In this document: positions 547 to 13,828 of the stretch, piece by piece | Layout of the letters: each line of letters begins with the position of its first letter | Position numbering within the stretch: the stretch's first letter is position 1 | Assembly (NCBI RefSeq): GCF_900128995.1 | Contig: NZ_FQUE01000004.1 | Span: forward strand, 1-64,000 | DNA: 64,000 nucleotides | Origin: Loktanella atrilutea | GTDB taxonomy: Bacteria > Pseudomonadota > Alphaproteobacteria > Rhodobacterales > Rhodobacteraceae | Reading direction: 5' to 3' | Notes under the pieces: model-generated | The model's input: the letters and a program-made list of their open reading frames with translations, nothing else | Databases searched by the model: none | What the model was told of the DNA's origin: nothing | Translations under genes and position numbers: made by a program

Positions 547-656
547 ATATATCAGGATATGGACGCGACGACCAGCCGCGACGGCCCGAGGAGGGGCAGC
601 TGCACACCCGTTGCATCCACCGTATTCGCAAGCCTGAAGCATCTGGGAGGATGACA

Positions 657-2462
657 ATGAGAACGGTAATGATGAGCCTGGCCGCGAGCCTGTTGATGAC
701 GACGGCGGCCCCCGTCTTCGCCAACGACTCGGTGACGGAAATCGCGAAAGACCCCGCCCAGTGGGGCATGCAGCTGGGCCAGTACGATGGAAGCCGCTAC
801 TCCAAGCTGGACAAGATCAACAAGGACAACGTCGGCGATCTGCAGGTAGCCTGGACCTTCTCGACCGGCGTGCTGCGCGGCCACGAAGGCTCTCCGCTCG
901 TCGTGGACAACGTGATGTATGTCCACACGCCGTTCCCGAACACGGTCTACGCGCTCGACCTGAACGAGGACGGCAAGATCCTGTGGAAGTACCAGCCGCA
1001 GCAGAACCCCGACGTCATCGGCGTGATGTGCTGCGACACGGTCAACCGCGGCGTCGCCTATGCGGACGGGATGGTCTTCCTGCACCAGGCCGATACCACG
1101 CTGGTGGCACTGGATGCGAAGACCGGCGAGGTGAAGTGGTCGGTCCAGAACGGCGACCCGGCGAAGGGCGAGACCAACACCGCCACCGTGACGATCGTCA
1201 AGGACAAGGTCCTCGTCGGCATCTCCGGCGGTGAATACGGCGTGCGCGGTCACATGACCGCCTATAACATCGCCGACGGCTCCATGGCCTGGCGCGCCTA
1301 TTCCACCGGCCCGGACGAGGACATGCTGGTCGATCCCGAAAAGACCATGGTGCTGGGCAAGCCGATCGGCGCGAACTCCTCTCTCGACAGCTGGGAAGGC
1401 GACCAGTGGCAGATCGGCGGCGGCACCACCTGGGGCTGGACGACCTATGACCCAGAGCTGAACCTCGTCTACTACGGCACCGGCAACCCCTCGACCTGGA
1501 ACCCGTCCCAGCGTCCGGGCGACAACAAGTGGTCGATGACGATCATGGCCCGCGACCCCGACACGGGCATGGCCAAGTGGTTCTACCAGAAGACTCCGCA
1601 CGACGAATGGGATTTCGACGGCGTGAACGAGAACATCCTGGCCGATCAGGAGATCGATGGCCAGATGCGCAAGATCCTCGTGAACTTCGACCGCAACGGC
1701 TTCGGGTACACCCTCGACCGCGAGACCGGCGAACTGCTGGTGGCCGAGAAGTATGACCCGCAGGTCAACTGGGCGACCGAAGTCGACATGGACAAGGACT
1801 CTGAAACCTACGGTCGTCCGCAGGTCGTGGCGGAATACTCGACCGAGCAGAACGGCGAGGACACCAACACCACCGGCGTCTGCCCGGCGGCCCTGGGGTC
1901 CAAGGACCAGCAGCCGGCCAGCTACTCGCCCGATACCGGCCTGTTCTACGTGCCGACCAACCACGTCTGCATGGACTACGAGCCCTTCCGCGTGAGCTAT
2001 GCCGCAGGCCAGCCCTACGTCGGTGCGACCCTGTCCATGTTCCCGGCGCCCGACAGCCACGGCGGCATGGGCAACTTCATCGCCTGGGACGCCACCAAGG
2101 GCGAGATCAAGTGGTCCCTGCCAGAGCAGTTCTCGGTCTGGTCCGGTGCGATGGCGACCGCGGGCGGCGTCGTGTTCTATGGCACGCTGGAAGGCTACCT
2201 GAAGGCGGTCGACGCCGAGACGGGTGACGAGCTTTACAAGTTCAAGACGCCGTCCGGCATCATTGGCAACGTCTTCACCTATGAACATGACGGCAAGCAG
2301 TTCGTCGGCGTCCTGTCGGGCATCGGTGGCTGGGCAGGCATCGGCCTCGCCGCCGGCCTGACCAACGCCAACGACGGTCTGGGTGCCGTGGGTGGCTATG
2401 CGGCACTGTCCGACTACACGGCGCTGGGTGGCCAGCTGACGGTCTTCACCGTCCCCGAGTGA
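657..2462 (+). CDS. xoxF: Lanthanide-dependent methanol dehydrogenase XoxF (PQQ quinoprotein)
   Basis: A 601-residue periplasmic PQQ dehydrogenase that oxidises methanol (and often formaldehyde) and passes electrons to cytochrome c. A signal peptide ends near AAPVFA. The adjacent cysteines of the PQQ pocket are Cys125-Cys126 (MCCDTVNRG). Metal ligands by family alignment are Glu193 (GGEYGVRG), Asn277 (TGNPSTWN) and Asp319 with Asp321 in DEWDFDG. The second aspartate of this DxD is the XoxF hallmark for rare-earth binding; calcium MxaF has Ala there. Propeller repeats such as [12 protein letters not shown] are visible. GGGAGG at 645-650 touches the ATG at 651 but stands 6 bases before the ATG at 657, so 657 is the likelier start. 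xoxG and xoxJ follow. Confidence 0.97.
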
Positions 2463-2616: not shown

Positions 2617-3312
2617 ATGAAACGTTTTGCGGCCACCGCGGCCATTGCCCTGATCGCCGCCAGTGCGGCCTTTGCACAGGATACGGCGACGACCGCCGCC
2701 ACGACGGCCGATCAGGCCGCGGCGCCGGCCACCGACGCCACCACGTCGGATGCGGCCCCCGCCGCCGATGCCACGACATCGGACGCGACCGCAACCGATG
2801 CGGCACCGGCGGACGCTGCCCCGGCGGATACGGCCACCGCTGATGCCGCGACCTCCGACAATCCGGCGCTGACCGATACGGCAGCCGACCACAACGACGG
2901 TATCCGCAACTTCACGGCAGAGGACATTCCGACCTTCGCCATCGCCGCGGACGGCACCGTCGACTGGCCGACATTCTCGGGCTTCCGCCGCTATCACGCG
3001 GAATGCCACGTCTGCCACGGGCCCGACGGCGAGGGGTCGAGCTATGCGCCGGCGCTGAAGAAGTCGGTGATGCGCCTCGACTACTACGATTTCGTGGGCA
3101 TCGTTGCCGGCGGCAAGCAGGAGGTCGGGCAGGCCCAGAACCAGGTGATGCCGGCCTTCGGGTCGAATCCGAACGTGATGTGCTACATCGACGACATCTA
3201 CACCTACCTGCGTGCCCGCGGCACGGACGCCGTCCCGCGCGGTCGCCCCGCCAAGAAGGAAACGAAGACGGACGCCTACGACGCTGCCGAAGCGTCCTGC
3301 ATGGGCTTCTGA
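2617..3312 (+). CDS. xoxG: Methanol-oxidation c-type cytochrome XoxG (four-cysteine family)
   Basis: A 231-residue exported cytochrome c, the expected electron acceptor of XoxF (cytochrome c553i or CycB in Paracoccus). It has a signal peptide ending AAFAQ and then about 70 residues rich in Ala, Thr, Asp and Pro. The cytochrome domain carries one haem site, Cys130-His-Val-Cys133-His134. Two more cysteines (NVMCYIDD and EASCMGF) give the four-Cys pattern of the methanol-metabolism-related cytochrome family. The candidate Met ligand is in NQVMPAF. GGAGGA at 2605-2610, 6 bases before the ATG at 2617, fixes the start; the reading frame is open further upstream but has no such site. Confidence 0.9.
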   Translation: MKRFAATAAIALIAASAAFAQDTATTAATTADQAAAPATDATTSDAAPAADATTSDATATDAAPADAAPADTATADAATSDNPALTDTAADHNDGIRNFTAEDIPTFAIAADGTVDWPTFSGFRRYHAECHVCHGPDGEGSSYAPALKKSVMRLDYYDFVGIVAGGKQEVGQAQNQVMPAFGSNPNVMCYIDDIYTYLRARGTDAVPRGRPAKKETKTDAYDAAEASCMGF

Positions 3313-4121
3313 TGCGGCTCGCACTGGCCCTGATCCTGTGCGCGGCGACACCCGCCGTCGCACAGGTCGCAGACCTCGTCGACCGGTCTCAGCTGCGGGT
3401 CTGCGCCGACCCGGCGAACCTGCCGCTGTCGGCGCAGGACGGCAGCGGGTTCGAAAACAGGATCGCGGAACTGATCGCGGCCCGGCTTGACGTGCCATTG
3501 ACCTACACATGGTTTCCGCAGGTCAACGGTTTCATCCGGCAGACGCTGAGCGTTGGGAAATGCGACGTCGTCATCGGTTATGCGCAGGGCGACGAGCAGG
3601 TGCTGAACACCAACCACTACTACACCTCTACCCACGTGCTCGTGGTGAAGGCCGACGGACCTCTGGCCGGTGTCACCCAGCTCTCGGACCCGGCCCTGAC
3701 AGAGGCGAAGATCGGCGTCGTGGCAGGGGCGCCGCCGACGACCCATGTGGCCCGTCTGGGCCTGATGAAGAACGCGAAGCCCTACAACCTGATGACCGAT
3801 CGCCGGGTCGAGGATCCGGCCGGCGACATGCTGCGCGACGTCGAGGATGGCACGACCGACGCGGCCTTGCTCTGGGGCCCGATCGGCGGACCGAAGGCAA
3901 AGGATTATCCCGACCTCAAGGTCATTCCCCTGCTGAACGAGGCCGCGACCCCGCGCCTGTTCTACCGCATCACGATGGGCGTGCGAGCCGGAGAGGACAA
4001 CTGGAAGCGCGAACTGAACAGCCTGATCCGCCGCAATCAGGATGAGATCGACGCGATCCTGCGGGACGCCGGCGTGCCGTTGGTGGACGACTACGGCACT
4101 GCGCTGAAGGCTGGAAACTAG
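3312..4121 (+). CDS. xoxJ: XoxJ, periplasmic binding-protein-like methanol oxidation protein
   Basis: A 269-residue exported protein with the type 2 periplasmic solute-binding fold (quinoprotein dehydrogenase-associated family, MxaJ/XoxJ). It has a signal peptide ending AVAQ, then LRVCADPANLPLSAQDGSGF, the typical first strand and ligand loop. GKCDVVIGYAQGDE and DGTTDAALLWGPIGG mark the hinge regions. It is thought to help XoxF mature or to bind a partner, not to transport. The start codon overlaps the xoxG stop (TGATG), so translation is probably coupled. Its TAG stop interlocks with the stop of the convergent gene in the bases CTAG (4118-4121). Confidence 0.9.
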   Translation: MRLALALILCAATPAVAQVADLVDRSQLRVCADPANLPLSAQDGSGFENRIAELIAARLDVPLTYTWFPQVNGFIRQTLSVGKCDVVIGYAQGDEQVLNTNHYYTSTHVLVVKADGPLAGVTQLSDPALTEAKIGVVAGAPPTTHVARLGLMKNAKPYNLMTDRRVEDPAGDMLRDVEDGTTDAALLWGPIGGPKAKDYPDLKVIPLLNEAATPRLFYRITMGVRAGEDNWKRELNSLIRRNQDEIDAILRDAGVPLVDDYGTALKAGN

Positions 4122-5047
4122 GGGGTCGGCGCAATGAAGAGTCCGAAGGCGCGGGGGCCTTCCGGCACGTCGACCTCAGCCACGACCTGCCGCGTCGCTG
4201 TGTCGATCAGGCTGACCGTGTCCGAAAACCAGTTCGCCACGACGATGCGGCCGCCGTCGGCGGTGGCGGCGATCCCTTCGGGATAGTCGCCCACGTCGAT
4301 CATGCCGGCGACGGCAAATGTTGCGGCGTCGAAGACCGTGACCGTGCTGTCGTACTGATTGGTGACGAAGCCCTGCCCGGCGGCAAAGGCCACCGCATAG
4401 GGTCGTTCGGCCGTGGGAATCTTGGCAATAATGCTGCCGTTGCCCGGGTCGATGACGGTGACGGTGTCATCCAGCACATCGGCCGTGAAGATCAGCCCGT
4501 CGTGCAGGGTCACGCCGAAGGGATGGTGCCCGACCGGCAGCGCCGTCGTCCCGTCGCCCCGGATCAGCGTCACGGCATCGGCATCGCGATCGGCCGTGAC
4601 GATCAGGCCCGGTACGGCGGCGACACCCGACGGCATGGCGCCGACCGGCCAGGCTGCGATTTCGGCCCCGGTGTCGGGGTCGATCTCGCGCAGGACGCCC
4701 GTCTGATCGGTGATCAGCGCCGTCCCCGTCTCTGGCCGGATGGCAAGGCCGAAGGGCGCACCGGCAACCGGGTGCTGCGCCACCGGACGACCGGCCATGT
4801 CGAACACATGCAGCAACCCGGTATCCACGGCCACGGCCATGATGCGGTCACGGACGGCATCGATAGAAACGGCGGCCGGATGGCCGGGCAGGGGCGTTGT
4901 CGACAGGACCTCGGCCGTGTCCGTGTCGATCAGCGTCAGGGTGCCGGCGGTCTGCGAGGTGATCGCGGCGATATCGCCAAGCCCCGGTGACGTGGCCCAA
5001 AGGACAGCCAGACCGGCGGCCCCGATCACCCGCGCCGCCGGGATCAC
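4118..5047 (-). CDS. Exported YVTN-type beta-propeller protein
   Basis: A 309-residue protein with an N-terminal hydrophobic segment and about six or seven repeats of the type VTVIDPGNGSIIAKIPTAER and IVVANWFSDTVSLIDTATRQ. These are the YVTN/NHL-like blades seen in periplasmic propellers of quinoprotein loci. The start is GTG, overlapping the stop of the upstream gene (GTGA), so it is co-translated with the MxaD-like protein. Its substrate or partner is unknown. It is clearly different from the second propeller at 6930-7892, which is closer to the PedA2 type. Confidence 0.75.
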   Translation of the reverse strand: MIPAARVIGAAGLAVLWATSPGLGDIAAITSQTAGTLTLIDTDTAEVLSTTPLPGHPAAVSIDAVRDRIMAVAVDTGLLHVFDMAGRPVAQHPVAGAPFGLAIRPETGTALITDQTGVLREIDPDTGAEIAAWPVGAMPSGVAAVPGLIVTADRDADAVTLIRGDGTTALPVGHHPFGVTLHDGLIFTADVLDDTVTVIDPGNGSIIAKIPTAERPYAVAFAAGQGFVTNQYDSTVTVFDAATFAVAGMIDVGDYPEGIAATADGGRIVVANWFSDTVSLIDTATRQVVAEVDVPEGPRAFGLFIAPTP

Positions 5048-5577
5048 TCCACCTTGCCGAAGCGGGCGGTCAGCGCGTCGATGCCCGTCTGGTGCAGGGC
5101 CTCCACGCTGGCAATGGCCGCGTCATCGTTCAGGTCCGCCGGCGGTTCGTTCTGAGGAAAACCGCGATAGAATGCACCCTTCCAGTCAAGTTCCGTCTTG
5201 CCGTCCACATCCTTGAGCGTGATGTGCGACGCATAGTTCGTGGCCTTCACGACGTCGAGGTTGGTCTCCAGCATCAGGGTCGAGATCGCATGCTTCTCGG
5301 ACTGCAGCTTCAGCAGTTCTTCTTCTACGACCTGACCGTCCTCCATCGTGCGCACGCGAGTGGCGCCCTTTTCGGTGCCCGTGGCCTCTACGCTCGCGAC
5401 GCCCGGAAACCATGACATGTCGTCGAAATGGCCGATTACGTCCCAGACCTCCTCCACCGGTGCGTCCAGTGTCACCGTCTGTTCGGTCTTCAATCTGACA
5501 GGACCATGCGCCAGCGCCGGTCCCGTCACCAGCGCCAGACAGGCCGCGAGCGTCATCATCGTCTTCGTCATCGTCAT
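5044..5577 (-). CDS. mxaD: MxaD-like SRPBCC (START-fold) exported protein
   Basis: A 177-residue protein with a signal peptide (ending PALAHG) and one SRPBCC domain: VTLDAPVEEVWDVIGHFDDM and SWFPGVASVEATG are the typical first strand and helices. MxaD of methanol oxidation operons has this fold and is reported to aid electron transfer between methanol dehydrogenase and cytochrome c. GGGAG lies just before the ATG chosen here; an ATG two codons later (5571) is equally possible. It precedes the beta-propeller gene and overlaps it by four bases. Symbol given by family and context only. Confidence 0.7.
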   Translation of the reverse strand: MTMTKTMMTLAACLALVTGPALAHGPVRLKTEQTVTLDAPVEEVWDVIGHFDDMSWFPGVASVEATGTEKGATRVRTMEDGQVVEEELLKLQSEKHAISTLMLETNLDVVKATNYASHITLKDVDGKTELDWKGAFYRGFPQNEPPADLNDDAAIASVEALHQTGIDALTARFGKVE

Positions 5578-5754
5578 GCTCTCCCTTGCCGCAATGCGCG
5601 GCTGCGGGTCCACTCTTGCCGAAAGCGTACTGCTGCCCGCAATCCACCGAAAGTATGAGAGAAAGCGATTTCAGCATGTTATGAGGCAATCGTGAAAAGA
5701 AACCGGTTGTAACCCCGGCCCCGGTCGTGCCCCATGGCAGGCAGGGAGGACGCG

Positions 5755-6933
5755 ATGATGAGACGGGAGGCGATCTGCGGCGCGCTGGTCTTGGCTGGCC
5801 TTGCCGGCCCTGCGCTGGCGGATGTGACCTATCGCGCCGCGGTGATCCGCGTCGATGCGCCGGGCCCCCTGCCGATCTCGCGCCTCGACCTGCCCCCCGA
5901 CGACCTGGGCTTTGCCGGCGCCGCACTTGCAACCGACGACAACATGACGACCGGTGCCTTCACCGGCCAGACGTTCGAGACCATCTCCGTGGTCGCGACG
6001 CCGGAAACGGCAGAGGCCGAGATGGCGCGCCTGCTGGACGACGGCATCTTCTTCGTCGTGACGCTGGCGGATGCGGCGACGACCGTGGCGCTGGCCGATC
6101 AGGCCGGCGATCGCGCGCTTGTCGTCAATGCCGCGGCGACTGACGACAGCCTGCGCGGGGCCGACTGCCGCGCCAACCTGCTGCATGTGACGCCCTCCGA
6201 CGCGATGCGCGCAGATGCGCTGGCGCAATACCTGATGTGGAAACGCTGGGACAGTTGGTTCCTGATCGCCGGCAGTCATCCCGAGGACGTCGCGCTGGCC
6301 GAGGCCTACACGCGCGCCGCCGCCAAGTTCGGCGCCAAGATCGTGGAAGAACGGACCTACGAAGACACCGGCGGCGCGCGGCGTACGGACACAGGGCATG
6401 TGCTGGTGCAGGCCCAGATTCCGGTCTTCACGCAGCGGGCCCCGGACCACGATGTGATGATCGCGGCCGATCATGCGGGGGTCTTCGGCGACTACCTGCC
6501 CTACCGCACATGGGACGCGCGGCCAGTCGCCGGCTCTGCCGGCCTGATCCCCACCAGCTGGACACCGGCGATGGAAGCCTGGGGCGCGACCCAGTGGCAG
6601 AACCGGTTCGAGGAAGGGGCCAGCCGCCTCGCGCAAGAGGAAGACTTCGAAACCTGGGTCGCCCTGCGCGTGTTGGGCGAGGCGGCGACGCGGACGCAGG
6701 GCGGAGATGCCGCCGCAATCCGCGATTTCATCCTGTCCGACCGGTTCGAACTGGGCGCCTTCAAGGGACAGAAGCTGACCTTCCGCGACTGGGACGGGCA
6801 GTTGCGCCAGCCGGTGCTGCTGGCCGCCGACAACGTCATCGTCTCGGTCTCGCCGCAGGACGGGTTCCTGCACCAGACCAGCACCCTCGACACCCTCGGG
6901 ATCGACCGCACGGAAACGGAGTGCCGCAAATGA
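5755..6933 (+). CDS. pedA1: ABC transporter substrate-binding protein of PQQ-alcohol dehydrogenase loci (PedA1-like)
   Basis: A 392-residue periplasmic protein with a signal peptide ending AGPALAD and a type 1 (Leu/Ile/Val-like) binding fold, matching the binding protein found with PQQ-dependent alcohol dehydrogenases. The P. putida counterpart, PedA1, belongs to the PedA1A2BC transporter needed for growth at low rare-earth concentration. A role in lanthanide supply to XoxF is therefore plausible but inferred. AGGGAGGA (5743-5750) supports the start at 5755 or at the next ATG. The stop overlaps the following start (ATGA). Only one cysteine is visible in the mature part (GADCRAN). Confidence 0.8.
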   Translation: MMRREAICGALVLAGLAGPALADVTYRAAVIRVDAPGPLPISRLDLPPDDLGFAGAALATDDNMTTGAFTGQTFETISVVATPETAEAEMARLLDDGIFFVVTLADAATTVALADQAGDRALVVNAAATDDSLRGADCRANLLHVTPSDAMRADALAQYLMWKRWDSWFLIAGSHPEDVALAEAYTRAAAKFGAKIVEERTYEDTGGARRTDTGHVLVQAQIPVFTQRAPDHDVMIAADHAGVFGDYLPYRTWDARPVAGSAGLIPTSWTPAMEAWGATQWQNRFEEGASRLAQEEDFETWVALRVLGEAATRTQGGDAAAIRDFILSDRFELGAFKGQKLTFRDWDGQLRQPVLLAADNVIVSVSPQDGFLHQTSTLDTLGIDRTETECRK

Positions 6934-7892
6934 GAAACCTTGCCCTGATCGCCCTCGCGCTGACGGCGCAGCCCGCGCTGGCCGACCGCATCTTCGTCAC
7001 CAATGAGCGCGGCAATTCCATCAGCGTCCTCGACGGCGACTCGCTGGAGGTGATTCACACCATCGACGGCCTGCAGCGCCCGCGCGGCATCACCGCCAGT
7101 CACGACGGCAAGGTGATCTACGTCTGCGCCTCTGACGACAATCTCGTTCGGGTCTATGACGCCGCCACCTTCGAGGAACTGCCCTCGCTGCCCTCCGGGC
7201 CGGACCCGGAGCTTTTCGTGCTGGACCCCGTGGGCGACAGGCTCTTCATCGCCAACGAGGACGACAATCTTGTCACCGTGGTCGACGTGAACACGCGGCA
7301 GGTGCTGGCCGAGGTGCCGGTAGGGGTGGAGCCGGAGGGCATGGGCGTCAGCCCGGACGGCAAGATCGTGGTCAACACCTCCGAGACGACGAACATGGCC
7401 CACATGATCGACACCACCACCTACGAGATCGTCGGCAACATTCTGGTCGACGGCCGTCCGCGCTATGCGGAATACACGCCGGACGGCCAGACGCTCTTCG
7501 TCTCGGCCGAAATCGGCGGCACGGTCAGCGTCATCGACGTGCCCAGCCAGACGGTGACGCACAAGATCACCTTCGACGTGCCGGGCCTGCTGCCAGAGGC
7601 GCTGCAGCCGGTCGGCATGCGGATCACAGAGGATGGCACGAAGCTTTACGTCGCGCTCGGCCCTGCGAACCGGGTCGCGGTCATCGACGTCGCCAGTGAC
7701 GAGGTCACCGACTACCTGCTGGTCGGCCAGCGGGTCTGGCAGATGGCGTTCTCACCCGACGGATCGCGGCTCTATACCGCGAACGGCAATTCGAACGACG
7801 TGTCGGTGATCGACACTGCAACCGACACGGTGACGGAATCCGTGCAGGTCGGCCAGCAGCCCTGGGGGCTGGTCGTCGTGCCGACACCCTGA
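6930..7892 (+). CDS. pedA2: PQQ-locus beta-propeller protein (PedA2-like, YVTN family)
   Basis: A 320-residue exported propeller. After a signal peptide (ALADRIF) come seven blade-like repeats, for example RIFVTNERGNSISVLDGDSL and RLFIANEDDNLVTVVDVN. This matches the beta-propeller family linked to PQQ-dependent catabolism and occupies the PedA2 slot between binding protein and ATPase. It probably works in the periplasm with the ABC transporter; the ligand is unknown. It overlaps the gene before it by four bases. Confidence 0.8.
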   Translation: MRNLALIALALTAQPALADRIFVTNERGNSISVLDGDSLEVIHTIDGLQRPRGITASHDGKVIYVCASDDNLVRVYDAATFEELPSLPSGPDPELFVLDPVGDRLFIANEDDNLVTVVDVNTRQVLAEVPVGVEPEGMGVSPDGKIVVNTSETTNMAHMIDTTTYEIVGNILVDGRPRYAEYTPDGQTLFVSAEIGGTVSVIDVPSQTVTHKITFDVPGLLPEALQPVGMRITEDGTKLYVALGPANRVAVIDVASDEVTDYLLVGQRVWQMAFSPDGSRLYTANGNSNDVSVIDTATDTVTESVQVGQQPWGLVVVPTP

Positions 7893-7921
7893 TGTATCCT
7901 GCAATGAAAGGCCCTAGACCG

Positions 7922-8356
7922 ATGAAGATCGCGATTGCTGCAATCCTGACCCTCCTGACCGCCGGCCCCCTTGTCGCCCAGCAGTTCGACTACGGATTCT
8001 CCGGCATGACCGGCAAGGCCAACCATACCGATCTTGCGCCGCTGACCCTCGGCTCCGGCAAGCCGGTGGCCGAGGCGCCCTACATGTTGAAGGCGGGCGG
8101 CTACTACAGCATCACCATCGAGGCGGACGGGACCGCGGAACTGGGCCTCTCCGGCGGCGATTTCTTCCGCGCGATCTGGGTGAACGAGGTGGTCATCAAC
8201 GACATCGAGGTGCGCCCGATGGGCCTCGCCTCGCTCGAATTCGACGACGAGGGCGAGGCCGAGATCAGCTTCATCGCCATTCAGCCGGGCACCTATGAAC
8301 TGTCGATCCCCGGATCGACGGGCGAGACGCAGAAGGCCGTCTTTACCATCCAATGA
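7922..8356 (+). CDS. Small exported protein of unknown function in the ped-like operon
   Basis: A 144-residue protein with a clear signal peptide (MKIAIAAILTLLTAGPLVAQ) and then a beta-rich domain with no cysteine. It has an acidic stretch (EFDDEGEAEISF) and a final VFTIQ strand. I do not recognise the family; it resembles a small cupredoxin-like or Ig-like fold only in strand pattern. The ATG at 7922 begins a complete signal peptide; ATGs at 7892 and 7904 in frame lack ribosome sites. The stop overlaps the ATPase start (ATGA), so it is part of the transporter operon. Confidence 0.75.
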   Translation: MKIAIAAILTLLTAGPLVAQQFDYGFSGMTGKANHTDLAPLTLGSGKPVAEAPYMLKAGGYYSITIEADGTAELGLSGGDFFRAIWVNEVVINDIEVRPMGLASLEFDDEGEAEISFIAIQPGTYELSIPGSTGETQKAVFTIQ

Positions 8357-9090
8357 CCGACACCGCTGACGCCCCGGCCCTTTCCATCGCTGCGGTCAGC
8401 CACCGCTTCGGGTCGAAGGCTGCCTTGCAGGACGTCAGCCTGACCGTGCCGCGCGCGGCCTTCTGCGCGCTGCTCGGCGTGAACGGTGCGGGCAAGACCA
8501 CGCTGTTCTCTCTCATCACCCGCCTTTACGACAGCACGTCCGGACGCATCGCCGTCGCGGGGTTCGACGCCCGCCGCACGCCGGGCAAGGCGCTGGCGCG
8601 CCTCGGAGTGGTGTTTCAAAGCCGCGCGCTGGATGGCGACCTGACCCTGCGGCAAAACCTGACCTATCACGCGGCGCTGCATGGTATCTCTGCCCGCAAG
8701 GCGGCCCCGCGCATCGCAGAAGTTCTGGCGCTGGTCGATCTTGCACCGCAGATGGACGCCCGCGTCAGCACCCTGTCAGGCGGCCAGCAGCGCCGGGCCG
8801 AGATCGCCCGCGCCCTGTTGCACCGCCCGGAACTGCTGCTGCTGGACGAGGCGACGGCGGGCCTCGACGTCCGGGCGCGGGCGGATGTGCTGGCACTGGT
8901 GCGCCGACTGATCGCGCAGGAGGGCGTCTCGACTCTCTGGGCGACCCACATCTTCGAGGAGATGGAGTCCGCCGATCACGTCGTCGTCCTCCATCAGGGC
9001 CGCGTGCTGGCGGATACCACCGCGGGTGATCTGGCAGGCACGGGCACCCTCTCCGAAGGTTTCATGGCCCTGACCGGAGAGCGCGCATGA
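8353..9090 (+). CDS. pedB: ABC transporter ATPase of PQQ-alcohol dehydrogenase system (PedB-like)
   Basis: A 245-residue ATP-binding subunit. The Walker A motif GVNGAGKTT is at residues 42-50, the signature is LSGGQQRRAEIARALLHRP, Walker B is LLLLDEAT, and the switch histidine is in WATHIFEEME. The sequence is of the exporter-associated (DrrA/NodI-like) class. It sits between the small exported protein and the permease with four-base overlaps on both sides. It powers the membrane subunit next door. Confidence 0.9.
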   Translation: MTDTADAPALSIAAVSHRFGSKAALQDVSLTVPRAAFCALLGVNGAGKTTLFSLITRLYDSTSGRIAVAGFDARRTPGKALARLGVVFQSRALDGDLTLRQNLTYHAALHGISARKAAPRIAEVLALVDLAPQMDARVSTLSGGQQRRAEIARALLHRPELLLLDEATAGLDVRARADVLALVRRLIAQEGVSTLWATHIFEEMESADHVVVLHQGRVLADTTAGDLAGTGTLSEGFMALTGERA

Positions 9091-9887
9091 CCGGCTGGTC
9101 CATCGCCTTCGGCGGCATCGCGCGGCGGGAGCTTTTGCGCTTCACCCGCCAACGCGAGCGGTTTCTCGCGGCGCTGGTGCGGCCGCTGGTCTGGCTCTTC
9201 ATCTTCGCGGCGGGCTTCCGGTCGGTGCTGGGGGTCAGCATCGTGCCGCCCTACAAGACCTACGTCCTCTACGACGTCTACGTCACGCCGGGCCTCTGCG
9301 GGATGATCCTGCTCTTCGCGGGCATGCAGTCGTCCCTATCGATGGTCTACGACCGCGAGACGGGGGCGATGCGCAGCCTTCTGGTCAGCCCCTATCCGCG
9401 CTGGTTTCTGCTGGGGGCCAAACTGACGGCGGCGGTGCTGGTGGCGGTGCTGCAGGTCTATGCCTTCCTCCTCATCGCCTGGTTCTGGGAGGTCCGGCCG
9501 CCGGTCATCGGCTACCTCACGGTGCTGCCGGCACTGATCCTCTCGGGACTGATGCTGGGCGCGCTGGGCCTGCTCATCTCCTCCGGCATCCGGCAGCTCG
9601 AGAATTTCGCGGGCGTGATGAACTTCGTGATCTTTCCGATGTTCTTTGCATCCTCCGCGCTCTACCCGCTCTGGCGGATGCAGGAATCGAGCACGCTGCT
9701 GCACGACATCGCCGCCGCCAATCCGTTCACCCATGCGGTCGAACTCGTTCGCTTCGCACTTTACGGCCAGCTGAACCCGGCAGCGGCGGCAATCACGCTG
9801 CTGTGCCTCATTGTGTTCTTCGCGGCCACGGTTTTCATGTATGATCCGGCCAAGGGACTCTGGCGCGGAAAGAAGGGGGGAGCATGA
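9087..9887 (+). CDS. pedC: ABC-2 type permease (PedC-like)
   Basis: A 266-residue inner-membrane protein with about six hydrophobic segments, including LVWLFIFAAGF, LTAAVLVAVLQVYAFLLIAW and AAITLLCLIVFFAATVFM. It has the ABC-2 family loop MVYDRETGAMRSLLVSPYPR. ABC-2 permeases normally export lipids, drugs or polysaccharides, yet this operon also has a periplasmic binding protein. The P. putida PedC homologue is tied to rare-earth-dependent growth. Direction and cargo cannot be read from sequence. Confidence 0.85.
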   Translation: MTGWSIAFGGIARRELLRFTRQRERFLAALVRPLVWLFIFAAGFRSVLGVSIVPPYKTYVLYDVYVTPGLCGMILLFAGMQSSLSMVYDRETGAMRSLLVSPYPRWFLLGAKLTAAVLVAVLQVYAFLLIAWFWEVRPPVIGYLTVLPALILSGLMLGALGLLISSGIRQLENFAGVMNFVIFPMFFASSALYPLWRMQESSTLLHDIAAANPFTHAVELVRFALYGQLNPAAAAITLLCLIVFFAATVFMYDPAKGLWRGKKGGA

Positions 9888-10471
9888 TCAAGGCACTCGT
9901 TCTGGCGCTGATCGCCGCGGGACCCGCGGTGGCGCAGCAGGTCACGGATCCGGACTGGCCTTGCCTGCAACGCAAACAGCCGCAGCTGTCGATCGCGCAG
10001 GTCTGGACCGGACCCGTCCCCGACGACACCACGGCAGAGCGGGCAAAGGATACCACCATCCGCACGCTGGCACGCAACATCGCGTTGCGTCGCACCAGCC
10101 TCGAAGAGGCGCAGGCGATGGTCGATACCTTTGCCGGTGACCACGACGACGTGGCGATGACGGCGCTGTTCCTTGCGACCTTCGACGACGTGCAGCGGGC
10201 GCGCGACCGGGTGATGGCAGGCATCACCCGCTACGCCCACAGTCAGGAGGCGCTGGACGACAAGATCAACACGCTGCGCAAGGATTTCGACACGCTGAAC
10301 GCGGCCGATCCACCGGATTTCGACGCGATCGACAAGGCAGAGGCCGATCTCGACTGGGCCACGCGCATTTTCAAGGACCGTCAGCAAGCGCTGACCTACG
10401 TCTGCGAGACGCCGGTCATTCTTGAACAGCGGGCATTCGCGCTCGGTCGCATGATCCAAAGCAAGCTGTAG
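9884..10471 (+). CDS. Exported coiled protein of unknown function, last gene of the ped-like operon
   Basis: A 195-residue exported protein: signal peptide MIKALVLALIAAGPAVAQ, then a mostly alpha-helical charged body (DDKINTLRKDFDTLNAADPP) with two cysteines, one near the N-terminus (DWPCLQRKQP) and one near the end (TYVCETPVI). These could form a disulphide. I do not recognise the family. The four-base overlap with the permease gene argues that it belongs to the transporter. Confidence 0.75.
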   Translation: MIKALVLALIAAGPAVAQQVTDPDWPCLQRKQPQLSIAQVWTGPVPDDTTAERAKDTTIRTLARNIALRRTSLEEAQAMVDTFAGDHDDVAMTALFLATFDDVQRARDRVMAGITRYAHSQEALDDKINTLRKDFDTLNAADPPDFDAIDKAEADLDWATRIFKDRQQALTYVCETPVILEQRAFALGRMIQSKL

Positions 10472-10605: not shown

Positions 10606-11310
10606 ATGAAGCACGAAGACATCGGCGTTGCCGGCCATGAAACCGTGACCGGGCATTCCACGCGACGACGGGTAGAGACCGTCCTGATCGTCGACGATCA
10701 TCCTTTGATCTGTCAGGCGCTCGTCATGACGATGACCCATGAACTGGGCCTGCGTCAGGTCCGCGTCGCCGCCAGCCTGAGCGACGCGATCGCCACGCTG
10801 AAGGGCGATGGCGCCATCGACGCGATCGTTCTGGATCTCAAGCTGCCGGACGTGGAAGGGGTCGAAGGCCTTCTGACGCTGCGCCAGAAGGCACCGGACG
10901 TGCCGATCACGGTGCTGTCGGCAGAACTTGATTCGCGGATGGTGACAGCGGTTCTGGCGGCCGGCGCCTGTGGCTACATCACCAAGACGATGCCGCAGTC
11001 AGAGATGATGGAGGCGTTCCGCCGCATGTGGCGCGGAGAGACCGTGTTGCCGGACGACTACGACCCCTGTTCCGATGAAGAGGACGAGGCACTGGCACTT
11101 GCCCGGTCCTTTGCGACACTGACGCCGCAACAGATGAACATCCTGCGGCTGATCTGCCAGGGGCGGCCGAACAAGATCATCTCCTATGAACTCTCGATCG
11201 CCGAGGCGACGGTGAAGACCCACATCGCTGCGATCATGACGAAAGTGAACGTGCGCAACCGGACCCATGCGGCCCTTCTGGCCGCCAAGGCGCGGCTGTT
11301 CACCACGTAG
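10606..11310 (+). CDS. LuxR/NarL-family response regulator of the alcohol oxidation locus
   Basis: A 234-residue regulator: receiver domain (TVLIVDDHPLICQAL, phosphoacceptor Asp77 in LDLKLPD, Lys in GYITK) and a C-terminal LuxR helix-turn-helix (LTPQQMNILRLICQGRPNKI, then EATVKTHI). It resembles ErdR/AgmR-type regulators that control PQQ alcohol dehydrogenases in pseudomonads. AGGGAGGA at 10593-10600 supports the ATG at 10606. It stands at the head of the FIST-kinase operon, so the kinase two genes on is its likely partner (inference). Confidence 0.85.
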   Translation: MKHEDIGVAGHETVTGHSTRRRVETVLIVDDHPLICQALVMTMTHELGLRQVRVAASLSDAIATLKGDGAIDAIVLDLKLPDVEGVEGLLTLRQKAPDVPITVLSAELDSRMVTAVLAAGACGYITKTMPQSEMMEAFRRMWRGETVLPDDYDPCSDEEDEALALARSFATLTPQQMNILRLICQGRPNKIISYELSIAEATVKTHIAAIMTKVNVRNRTHAALLAAKARLFTT

Positions 11311-11319
11311 GAGCGCGGT

Positions 11320-12468
11320 ATGCGCGACACCGGCGCAGAGACGGCCCGACAACCGATCGTGCTGAAGTCCGGCGGCGACGGCGCTGCGATCCTCGGCGCG
11401 TGCCGCGCGGCCTTCGGTGACTGCCTGCTGACGATGGTCCTGTTCTTTGCCCCTGATGGGGAACAGGTGGCAGAGGTCTCCGCTTTGCTGGCAGAGGCCT
11501 TCGGCCCTGACTGCGACGTCATGGGCTGCTCCTCGGCTGGTGGCTTCGCCTTTGGCGGCTACGATGACCGGCAGGTCGTGCTGATCGGCTTTCCCGCCGC
11601 CACCTTCCGTGCCCATGCGGTCTGGCTGCCTTGCCTGCGGCAGCACATGGCGCGCGGCTGGATGCGGACGCTGCGCGACCTGTCGGCGGACTTCGCGCCG
11701 ACGCCGGGACGGGCGCAGTTCGGCCTGCTACTGATCGACGGCATGAGCGGTCGCGAGGAACTGATCACCACGACGGTCAACGCCACGCTTCCCGACCTGC
11801 TGGTGCTTGGCGGCTCTGCCGGTGACAGCCTGCGGTTCGACCGGACGCACCTTGCGCTGAACGGCCAGACCCACGGCGAAAGCGCGCTGTTTTGTCTTTT
11901 CGAGACTGATTTTGCGGTCGAAGAAGTGGTATTCGATCCCTTCGTCCCAGCCAGCCAACGCATGTTCGTAACCCGCGCCAGTCCGGACGACCGCCTTTTG
12001 CAGGAGATCAACGCCGAACCGGCGGTCGAGGAATACGCCCGCCTGATCGGCGTGCCCGTCGCGGACCTCGGCCCGGCGGTATTCGCGGCCAATCCGATCC
12101 TCGAACGGTCCAACGGACGGAATTTCGTGCGTGCGATCAGCGGCGTCACCGCATCGGGCGGGCTGACCCTGATGTCGGCGGTGGAAACCGGCGCGATCCT
12201 GAAGCTTGGCCGCGCCGACAGCCTGACCCACGGCATGCGCGACCGGCTGGACGCGCTGGGCGATGTGGCGCTGATCCTCGGCTTCGACTGCATCCTGCGC
12301 CGCATCGCGCTGGAGGAGGCGGGGCAGGGCGTGCTGATCAACGCACTTTACAGCAAGTTCAGGATTGCAGGCTTCAACACCTACGGCGAGCAGCATTGCG
12401 GCATCCACGTGAACCAGACCTTTGCCGGTCTGGCGATCCTGACACGGGGGGCCGGCGATGATGCGTGA
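11320..12468 (+). CDS. FIST-domain sensory protein (NosP-like)
   Basis: A 382-residue cytoplasmic protein with no signal peptide. The FIST N domain covers about residues 30-220 (GCSSAGGFAFGGYDDRQVVL; LVLGGSAGDSLRF) and FIST C about 230-365 (EYARLIGVP; ending AGFNTYGEQHCG). FIST proteins are ligand sensors. In Pseudomonas aeruginosa one of them, NosP, is a haem nitric-oxide sensor encoded beside the kinase NahK, the same arrangement as here. Whether this one binds haem is not shown by the sequence. GGAG at 11310-11313 gives the start; the end overlaps the kinase gene by 11 bases. Confidence 0.85.
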   Translation: MRDTGAETARQPIVLKSGGDGAAILGACRAAFGDCLLTMVLFFAPDGEQVAEVSALLAEAFGPDCDVMGCSSAGGFAFGGYDDRQVVLIGFPAATFRAHAVWLPCLRQHMARGWMRTLRDLSADFAPTPGRAQFGLLLIDGMSGREELITTTVNATLPDLLVLGGSAGDSLRFDRTHLALNGQTHGESALFCLFETDFAVEEVVFDPFVPASQRMFVTRASPDDRLLQEINAEPAVEEYARLIGVPVADLGPAVFAANPILERSNGRNFVRAISGVTASGGLTLMSAVETGAILKLGRADSLTHGMRDRLDALGDVALILGFDCILRRIALEEAGQGVLINALYSKFRIAGFNTYGEQHCGIHVNQTFAGLAILTRGAGDDA

Positions 12469-13828
12469 CGAAGACACGCCCGCCCGCCGGATCGCCAAGC
12501 TGGAGCGGATCGTCGAGGCGCTGGTCGAACGGCTGGAACGGACGGAGGAGGCGCGCGGCCCGTCCTATGCCCTCACCCGGGCCGCTGCCCTGCTGGAACG
12601 CGAGATCATCGCACGCAACGATGACCTCGAACGCGCTCTGACCGATCTGGAAGCGATCAATGCACAATTGGCACAGGCCCATGCCGCGGCGGACGAGGCG
12701 AACCGGGCCAAGTCCCGTTTCCTGCGCGCTGCCAGCCATGACCTGCTGCAACCGTTGAGTGCCGCCAAGATGTTCCTGTCGCATCTGGCGAACCTGTCCA
12801 CGGACGCGCGGCAGGTCGATATCGTGTCACACCTGACCGGCACCATCGAGTCGGCCGAAGAGCTGATCGGTGCGCTGTCGCAGATCGCGCGGCTGGACGG
12901 ACGCAGCGTGCGTCTGGACCTCGTGCCCCTTTCGCTCGACCGGTTGTTCTGGCGGCTGGGTCTGGACCTGCAGCCACTGGCGGTGCAGCGGGGCGTCGAT
13001 CTGCGCTTCGTGCGGTCCGGCCTGACGGTCGAAAGCGATCCGGTGTATCTGCGTCAGATCGCGCAGAACCTGATCGCAAACGCCTTGAAATACACCGATG
13101 GCGCTAAGGTGCTGGTCGGCGTGCGCCGTCAGGGTGACACTGCGTGGCTGGAGGTCTACGATCAGGGTCCCGGCATCGCCGACGCCGACCGCGCGCGCAT
13201 TTTTCAGGAATTCGAGCGTCTGGGCCACTCCGACCAACCGGGCACCGGGCTGGGACTGTCGATCGTGCAGCGCGCCACACATCTGTTGAAGCATCCGCTG
13301 GAACTTCATTCGGAGCCGGGCAAGGGTTCGCGTTTTCGCGTCGGTCTGCCGGTGCGTGTCGGTCTTTGCGCCATGCGCGCGCCGGATCGCAACCGACACC
13401 AGAGCGATTTTCCGCAGGCCTTGCGTGGGCTCCACGTTCTGGTTGTCGAGAACGACCCCGCGATGCGTCAGGCGTTCGACGCACTCCTGACGGGCTGGGG
13501 CATGACCGTCCGGACGGTCGATTCGATCAGGGCCGCCCGCCAGGCGCTTGCGGTGCGCGCGCCCGATCTCGTGCTGACGGACTATCGCCTCGACGGCGGA
13601 GAGACTGGCATCCAGACGATCCGCCAGCTCCGCGCCGACGGTCACGCGCGACTGCCCGCGGTGCTGGTCAGCGGCGACGACGCCGAGGCGATGGCCGCGG
13701 ATGCCCACGCCCTGAATGTCGCACTGCTGGCCAAGCCGGTGGACGAGGCGCAGTTGCAACGCGCCATGTGCGCGGCGCTTGCGGACGTGCCCCGGGGCGT
13801 CGATGCGGCCGTGACGATCTGTGGATAA
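12458..13828 (+). CDS. Cytosolic hybrid histidine kinase (NahK/ErcS-like)
   Basis: A 456-residue kinase without membrane segments or a recognisable PAS domain. Residues 1-85 look like coiled coil. Next come the H box (ASHDLLQPL, His94), the ATPase domain (NLIANALKYTD; GPGIAD; GTGLGLSIV) and a C-terminal receiver (HVLVVENDPAM; Asp375 in LTDYRLD; Lys in LLAKPV). Because it has no sensor of its own, the overlapping FIST protein is the obvious input. The genes overlap by 11 bases, implying coupled synthesis. Output is probably the LuxR-type regulator at 10606, directly or by phosphorelay. Confidence 0.85.
   Translation: MMRDEDTPARRIAKLERIVEALVERLERTEEARGPSYALTRAAALLEREIIARNDDLERALTDLEAINAQLAQAHAAADEANRAKSRFLRAASHDLLQPLSAAKMFLSHLANLSTDARQVDIVSHLTGTIESAEELIGALSQIARLDGRSVRLDLVPLSLDRLFWRLGLDLQPLAVQRGVDLRFVRSGLTVESDPVYLRQIAQNLIANALKYTDGAKVLVGVRRQGDTAWLEVYDQGPGIADADRARIFQEFERLGHSDQPGTGLGLSIVQRATHLLKHPLELHSEPGKGSRFRVGLPVRVGLCAMRAPDRNRHQSDFPQALRGLHVLVVENDPAMRQAFDALLTGWGMTVRTVDSIRAARQALAVRAPDLVLTDYRLDGGETGIQTIRQLRADGHARLPAVLVSGDDAEAMAADAHALNVALLAKPVDEAQLQRAMCAALADVPRGVDAAVTICG

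Follow-up and report, generated by a model that had tools for sequence, protein, structure and literature searches.

A probable lutABC-EFG operon beside xoxF in Loktanella atrilutea and a LutG protein that may be an XoxF partner

Introduction

Two described systems for lanthanide-dependent growth lie closest to the locus considered here, a six-gene run at positions 5755-10471 on the plus strand of a 64,000-base stretch of Loktanella atrilutea DNA. In Methylorubrum extorquens AM1, META1p1778-1785 correspond to lutA to lutH, with locus numbers tabulated for lutA, B, E, F, G, and H and with C and D placed by order (PMC7391723). Mutants in lutE or lutF do not grow on methanol with lanthanum (La) until suppressors arise, growth rates are 0.02-0.03 per hour for the mxaF lutA, mxaF lutB, and mxaF lutG double mutants, and the strong lutG defect was complemented; the lutC mutant has a mild defect (9 h lag, rate 0.11), and LutD binds lanthanides, yet its loss is without significant effect (PMC7391723). 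The authors reported cytoplasmic lanthanide storage and concluded from their mutants that, when the Lut ATP-binding cassette (ABC) transporter is missing, lanthanides get as far as the periplasm and do not enter the cytoplasm; their case for import is built on this storage and on how La was balanced in mutant cultures (PMC7391723). In Pseudomonas putida KT2440, a mutant in the pedA1A2BC transporter requires ~100-fold more La for PedH-dependent growth, whereas PedE-dependent growth is unaffected, and the authors argued for import from the presence of a binding protein (PMC6839425).

The stretch analysed here (the window) comprises the first 64,000 bases of contig NZ_FQUE01000004.1 in a 4.2 Mb draft genome (assembly GCF_900128995.1). 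An earlier, sequence-only reading had described the run as a PedA1A2BC-like transporter, next to xoxF, with two additional unknown exported subunits. The run is very probably the lut operon, lutABC-EFG, of a methylotroph, serving the adjacent XoxF, with LutC as a putative accessory of the transporter and LutG as a candidate accessory of XoxF. The lut system itself is already known; new here are the fold assignments for LutC and LutG and the concordance between LutG and XoxG, the c-type cytochrome encoded with XoxF. Neither was found in the open-licence papers searched, and none found there joins lutC with cupredoxins.

Results

Organization of the six-gene run

The order and strand given for the six genes in the sequence-only reading were confirmed. 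Four of them exceed the curated cut-offs of their NCBIfam families, and with xoxFGJ adjacent they bear out the proposed PedA1A2BC-like transporter and its link to rare-earth-dependent methanol oxidation. lutA/pedA1 (5755-6933) encodes a periplasmic substrate-binding protein (TIGR03863, 470.9 bits, cut-off 413.6; Pfam Peripla_BP_6), lutB/pedA2 (6930-7892) an exported β-propeller (TIGR03866, 492.3 bits, cut-off 287.3), lutE/pedB (8353-9090) an ABC ATPase (TIGR03864, 316.5 bits, cut-off 302.25), and lutF/pedC (9087-9887) an ABC-2 type permease (TIGR03861 PedC, 392.2 bits, cut-off 241.35; Pfam ABC2_membrane). The two small genes are lutC (7922-8356), identified by its position in Methylorubrum lut clusters, an AlphaFold2 model, Foldseek, and Pfam matches within its family, and lutG (9884-10471), identified by its position after lutF in named loci, an AlphaFold2 model, and invariant residues. 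Signal-peptide-like N termini suggest that the periplasmic and exported proteins are correctly so described.

Four-base ATGA overlaps join lutA to lutB (6930-6933), lutC to lutE (8353-8356), lutE to lutF (9087-9090), and lutF to lutG (9884-9887). The proposed locking of both small genes into the run by such overlaps therefore holds for lutC/lutE and lutF/lutG and fails for lutB/lutC, where the lutB stop ends at 7892 and a lutC start at 7922 leaves a 29-base gap; an alternative upstream ATG for lutC at 7892 would give a one-base overlap. No lutD is present between lutC and lutE, as the overlap leaves no room for it; the content of this place varies in other loci too, P. alcaliphilus with its PepSY gene being one example. 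Both small open reading frames (ORFs) look coding: the GC content at third codon positions is similar to that of neighbouring genes (0.88 for lutC and 0.82 for lutG), and homologues occur across many genera.

Identity of the two small proteins

Searches with the two small proteins gave no match in NCBIfam; in Pfam, LutC gave a single match (E 0.21) and LutG none. Their names come from gene order. Four LutG queries yielded 177 relatives, and the loci of the best 80 were retained (the named loci). Of these, 77 belong to Methylobacterium, Methylorubrum, or organisms labelled just Beijerinckiaceae or Methylobacteriaceae bacterium, and the rest to Microvirga, Labrys, and Xanthobacter. In every one of the 80, lutG is the next sought gene after lutF, and A-B-C-D-E-F-G is complete and ordered in 73. 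Four named loci show no lutA match (L169 and L204 are cut at the left end; L175 and L219 have room for lutA), L177 is a fragment holding lutF, lutG, and lutH, and the Labrys and Xanthobacter loci are without C and D. Within the fetched DNA, a lutH-like match was found in 56/80 loci and lanM in 25/80; the Xanthobacter lutH-like match is weak and lies beyond xoxF. Because the order in these relatives matches the published order in AM1, the first small protein is assigned as LutC and the second as LutG.

The LutG name has independent support, since homologues of AM1 lutA, B, E, F, and G were published in 2025 for Sinorhizobium meliloti 2011, among others (PMC12628762), and a protein 44% identical to the window LutG is encoded in the pSymB records of both S. 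meliloti 1021 and 2011. Homology of LutG to P. putida PP_2666 was considered and set aside; PP_2666 is described as a rhodanese-domain protein (PMC12997753), and in S. meliloti LutG and a CXXCW protein are encoded by different genes.

A class sample was assembled from 385 genomes of the window's class, 57 of which contain LutF (TIGR03861, 57/57 over cut-off), and the 56 lutF loci besides the window were fetched. The LutC query matched 20 ORFs in 18 of these loci and the LutG query matched in 17/56. The possibility that LutC and LutG are novelties of this locus was rejected, both families being widespread alongside lutF. Judged by gene order and homology, both small proteins are members of the known LutC and LutG families and not new, and the "unknown subunits" of the sequence-only reading are better described as occupants of the lutC and lutG positions, for which AM1 mutants are already published (PMC7391723).

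LutG follows XoxG across genomes

At strict cut-offs (E limits set after the lists had been seen), LutG was found in 24 genomes of the class sample (E<1e-40) and LutC in 22 (E<1e-30), and every one of these genomes also has LutF (24/24 and 22/22). A lack of conservation of the small proteins with pedABC, which the sequence-only reading had named as grounds for refuting it, was thus not observed. XoxG (TIGR03874, E<1e-15) occurs in 26 class-sample genomes, 25 of them with LutF. Among the 57 LutF genomes, LutG is present in 21/25 with XoxG versus 3/32 without it (Fisher p 1e-8), and LutC in 15/25 versus 7/32 (p 0.006); 29 of the 33 LutF genomes lacking LutG also lack XoxG. The lutG gene lies ≤1.4 kb from lutF in 18 of the 24 LutG genomes, and in three others (G348, G131, and G316) it is found within 2 kb of xoxG, away from lutF.

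A second sample covered 126 genomes of the window's order, with the window genome and at least four others common to both samples. Here, the 18 genomes with LutG are also the 18 with over-cut-off XoxG, and the other 108 have neither, with the exception of a weak XoxG match in G697 (E 1.3e-4). Directly after lutF is the position of lutG in nine of the 18, including the window; in seven it is apart from lutF, divergent, and ~3 kb upstream of xoxF, and in two (G609 and G698) it sits at the end of a contig. One split locus (L228) was annotated, and there genes for a glutathione-dependent formaldehyde dehydrogenase and an S-formylglutathione hydrolase separate lutG from xoxF. Loss of LutF from the split genomes was suspected and rejected, as LutF was found in all six searched of the seven (G689 was left out). 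Within the order, LutF was searched in split genomes only, and the contrast between LutG tracking XoxG and LutG tracking LutF rests on the class sample.

These distributions better support a LutG that follows XoxG than one that follows the transporter. A pure transporter role predicts LutG in XoxG-less clusters too, which is at odds with the 29/33 figure, and a function at XoxF accounts best for the pattern. From its distribution, LutG may belong with XoxF as a partner and not with the transporter as a subunit. Genomes G276, G155, G332, and G023 contain, at another location, a second and divergent LutG-like gene (E 5e-15 to 7e-26).

Several observations weigh against this interpretation or against the lut assignment as a whole. 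XoxG serves as a proxy for XoxF, and its E<1e-15 threshold was picked after seeing the list, in which 7 of the 385 class genomes are over the curated cut-off. The genomes are kin, so p values and counts exaggerate independence. Exceptions run in both directions: G130, G155, and G332 have LutG without XoxG at E<1e-15 (the G332 locus, L074, holds a weak xoxG match of 32%, E 4e-5), G027, G075, G286, and G364 have LutF and XoxG with no LutG, and G008 has XoxG with no LutF. In 3 of the 24 genomes (G233, G246, and G070), lutG is near neither lutF nor xoxG. Relaxing the limit to E≤0.001 gives LutG in 25 genomes (24 with LutF) and LutC in 37 (27 with LutF), the extra matches being weak; they include a LutG match in G253 (E 7.8e-14) and LutC matches in 10 genomes (E 1e-4 to 1e-18), all without LutF. 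At E<1e-30, 35 of the 57 LutF genomes are without LutC. M. extorquens AM1 is not among the 80 named loci, and the LutC and LutG names rest on gene order in AM1 relatives. Finally, lutD is missing from the window, and a single LutH query, run without a positive control, found no match in the genome.

Predicted structures of LutC and LutG

The AlphaFold2 model of LutC, built from 21 sequences, has a mean predicted local distance difference test score (pLDDT) of 85.6 and a predicted template modeling score (pTM) of 0.73. Foldseek aligned it with cupredoxin domains, including those of copper nitrite reductase (best E 3.0e-6), laccases, and AcoP (1.9e-5); E-values ranged from 3.0e-6 to 4.7e-5, with modest TM-scores (0.46-0.55 by query length, up to 0.55 for AcoP, and at most ~0.56). 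Pfam Cupredoxin_1 matches 9 of the 21 family members (best E 3.4e-8), the window LutC not among them. LutC is therefore predicted to be a cupredoxin β-sandwich. In an alignment of 108 LutC sequences, weighted to Methylobacterium, no well-filled column contains ≥20% cysteine, and the window LutC has no cysteine; because of this, the type-1 copper site is, as judged from the alignment, absent from LutC. Six positions (E73, D80, E96, E106, D108, and D109 in the window) are acidic in 93-100% of the 108 sequences. In LutC proteins from the Methylobacterium-type loci L122, L123, and L124, histidines occupy the columns of window positions 94, 98, and 104; the window LutC lacks them. Among solved structures, a likeness of LutC to filamins (best E 0.0051 by sequence and 0.00026 by profile) was judged to reflect chance or composition.

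The LutG model (36 sequences; pLDDT 95.1, pTM 0.82) is made up mostly of helices, one of them 52 residues long, and LutG is predicted to be all-helical. Residues W25, P26, C27, W41, Q121, R161, C174, and P177 are invariant in the 36 sequences, and the invariance of C27 and C174 suggests that the two form a disulphide. A fold search of the model against the PDB found nothing at E≤0.001 (best 0.093, a BAR domain), and a single-sequence search found no solved relative. Matches between a LutG profile and designed helical bundles (best E 0.00085) were put down to chance or composition. Across 38 LutG members, no Pfam family matches more than 3, with weak E-values.

The xoxF cluster and flanking genes

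The xoxF gene (651-2462, plus strand) encodes a lanthanide-type PQQ (pyrroloquinoline quinone) methanol dehydrogenase (TIGR03075, 771.7 bits, cut-off 480.05) with WDFD at residues 320-323, whose D-x-D we take to be the lanthanide-type signature. Since it is the sole TIGR03075 match over cut-off in the genome, lanthanide supply probably governs PQQ-dependent methanol oxidation in this organism. It is followed on the same strand by xoxG (2617-3312; TIGR03874, 246.7 bits, cut-off 161.75), for a c-type cytochrome, and xoxJ (3309-4121; TIGR03871, 287.7 bits, cut-off 212.15), for a periplasmic binding-like protein. The start of lutA is 3.3 kb past the end of xoxF and 1.6 kb past xoxJ. The run had been placed "next to xoxF", which is right, with two minus-strand genes (4118-5613) lying between xoxJ and lutA. 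One (4118-5047) encodes a second exported β-propeller protein (TIGR02276 repeats; TIGR03866 85.0 bits, far under the cut-off of 287.3) and the other (5044-5613) an exported SRPBCC protein (Pfam Polyketide_cyc2), presumably MxaD-like. In same-order fetched loci showing both xoxJ and lutA, this opposite-strand pair recurs between them in 11/15 and the SRPBCC gene in 12/15, in one of them alone.

Downstream of lutG, positions 10606-13828 encode a LuxR response regulator (ErdR-like), a FIST protein (NosP-like; 267 bits versus a cut-off of 450), and a hybrid kinase (NahK/ErcS-like), all three below NCBIfam cut-offs. A comparable trio recurs at xox/ped loci, including those of S. meliloti and Sulfitobacter.

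A classical ABC importer (SsuA/TauA-like binding protein, BPD_transp_1 permease, and ATPase) was observed near lutF in 25 of the 141 loci searched, the window not among them. It sits between lutC and lutE in S. meliloti pSymB (L253:7548-9895) and in L062, and it follows lutC in L231, where lutE is not clearly seen. Such an importer may be the true importing partner of the ABC-2 LutEF.

Discussion

The phenotypes and families above can be assembled into a working model for the lut operon. In the periplasm, LutA would work with LutB in handling a lanthanide or its chelate; the LutEF ATPase and permease would spend ATP moving the lanthanide, or a complex of it, over the inner membrane, in the published reading inward. 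LutC would assist the transporter as a copper-less accessory with a cupredoxin fold. LutG would act as a helical, probably disulphide-held periplasmic accessory of XoxF in metal delivery, maturation, or stability, and its encoding with the transporter would make the proteins for metal supply and metal use together. Metal binding, the direction of transport, and contact between LutG and XoxF are the putative elements of this scheme. A more specific version is tentative, and we hold it to be doubtful: LutG would be a dedicated XoxF partner for lanthanide delivery or maturation, encoded in the transporter operon or the xoxF neighbourhood according to lineage, and LutC an ex-copper cupredoxin holding the lanthanide at the mouth of LutEF through the conserved carboxylates of E73, D80, E96, E106, D108, and D109.

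The sequence-only reading remarked on an odd pairing of an exporter-class permease with a periplasmic binding protein; the pairing is real, but it is common to the whole PedC/LutF family and not peculiar to this locus. Given its ABC-2 class, LutEF might be an exporter or a mechanical ABC machine, either delivering a cofactor, chelator, or maturation factor to the periplasm or supplying the energy with which metal is passed on to XoxF; LutA, B, C, and G would then be the acceptors on the periplasmic side. After PedC, the next-best NCBIfam matches of LutF, all below cut-off, are mostly export families, including DrrB, NodJ, and KpsM. No solved relative of LutA or LutF was found at E 0.01. XoxF is itself periplasmic, LutG co-occurs with XoxG, and 16 of the 56 class-sample loci have a distinct classical importer no more than ~7 kb from lutF, all of which would suit export. 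LutA-type binding proteins, however, are a mark of importers, and the cytoplasmic lanthanide storage and mutant-based conclusion in M. extorquens point inward (PMC7391723). On this evidence, we regard the export account as unlikely.

Two further accounts fare worse. Were the small proteins metal carriers or regulators that are new, specific to this locus, and joined to a PedA1A2BC transporter, the failure of the window proteins to match NCBIfam, or Pfam meaningfully, would be expected, as would the retention of six acidic positions in LutC, and the published P. putida ped gene table has no such small genes among pedA1A2BC (PMC12997753). Newness is nevertheless refuted by the breadth of both families and their occupation of the lutC and lutG positions in Methylorubrum, and mutants in both genes are already in print (PMC7391723), making this account very improbable. 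Carriage of PQQ, or of a PQQ complex, instead of a lanthanide might be suggested by the NCBIfam family names (PQQ-dependent alcohol dehydrogenase system) and by linkage to a PQQ dehydrogenase. It is largely refuted by the P. putida transporter mutant, which is affected in PedH- and not PedE-dependent growth even though PedE is also a PQQ enzyme (PMC6839425), and we consider it scarcely credible. The lut reading, with lanthanide as the transported metal, is preferred to all three.

The analysis links both small proteins with the lut system already in print and makes the role of LutG testable: in the order sample, the genomes that have LutG are the same as those that have the XoxF cytochrome, whereas across the class the genomes that have the transporter are not. 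If LutG is indeed an XoxF partner, this would help explain how lanthanides reach a periplasmic enzyme although the known pathway is thought to be cytoplasmic.

Set beside the described systems, the run in the window can be read against M. extorquens AM1 lutABCDEFGH (PMC7391723), which it resembles in the A-B-C-E-F-G order and in the curated A, B, E, and F families; the proteins at C and G in named relatives of AM1 belong to the same families as those in the window. Unlike that cluster, the window run lacks lutD between C and E, and neither lutH nor lanM comes immediately after G. In the window, xoxFGJ are close to the lut genes, whereas ~32 kb separate xoxG from lutG in the Methylobacterium-like genome G283. 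P. putida KT2440 pedA1A2BC (PMC6839425) is alike in its binding protein, propeller, ATPase, and permease, with matching NCBIfam names; unlike the window, its gene table as published lists neither lutC nor lutG (PMC12997753), and its transporter serves PedH, an ethanol-type dehydrogenase (PMC6839425), where that of the window would serve XoxF. The predicted fold of LutC is like that of AcoP-like single-domain cupredoxins and copper nitrite reductase domains, from which LutC differs in lacking the type-1 copper cysteine.

A further comparison is offered by the xox-lut locus of Paracoccus alcaliphilus DSM 8512, carried on a plasmid of 429,813 bases. It differs from the window in a PepSY-domain gene between lutC and lutE, in leaving no space for the minus-strand pair between xoxJ and lutA, and in the position of xoxF, on the other strand beyond lutG. 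The small PepSY-annotated protein (L090:8120-8371; PepSY_2 23.9 bits, cut-off 24.3) is encoded at the place of Methylobacterium lutD; lanthanide binding has been published for a PepSY protein of Methylobacillus (PMC12482762). The plasmid otherwise carries xoxG-xoxJ-lutA-B-C-E-F-G as in the window, with XoxF 86% and LutF 82% identical.

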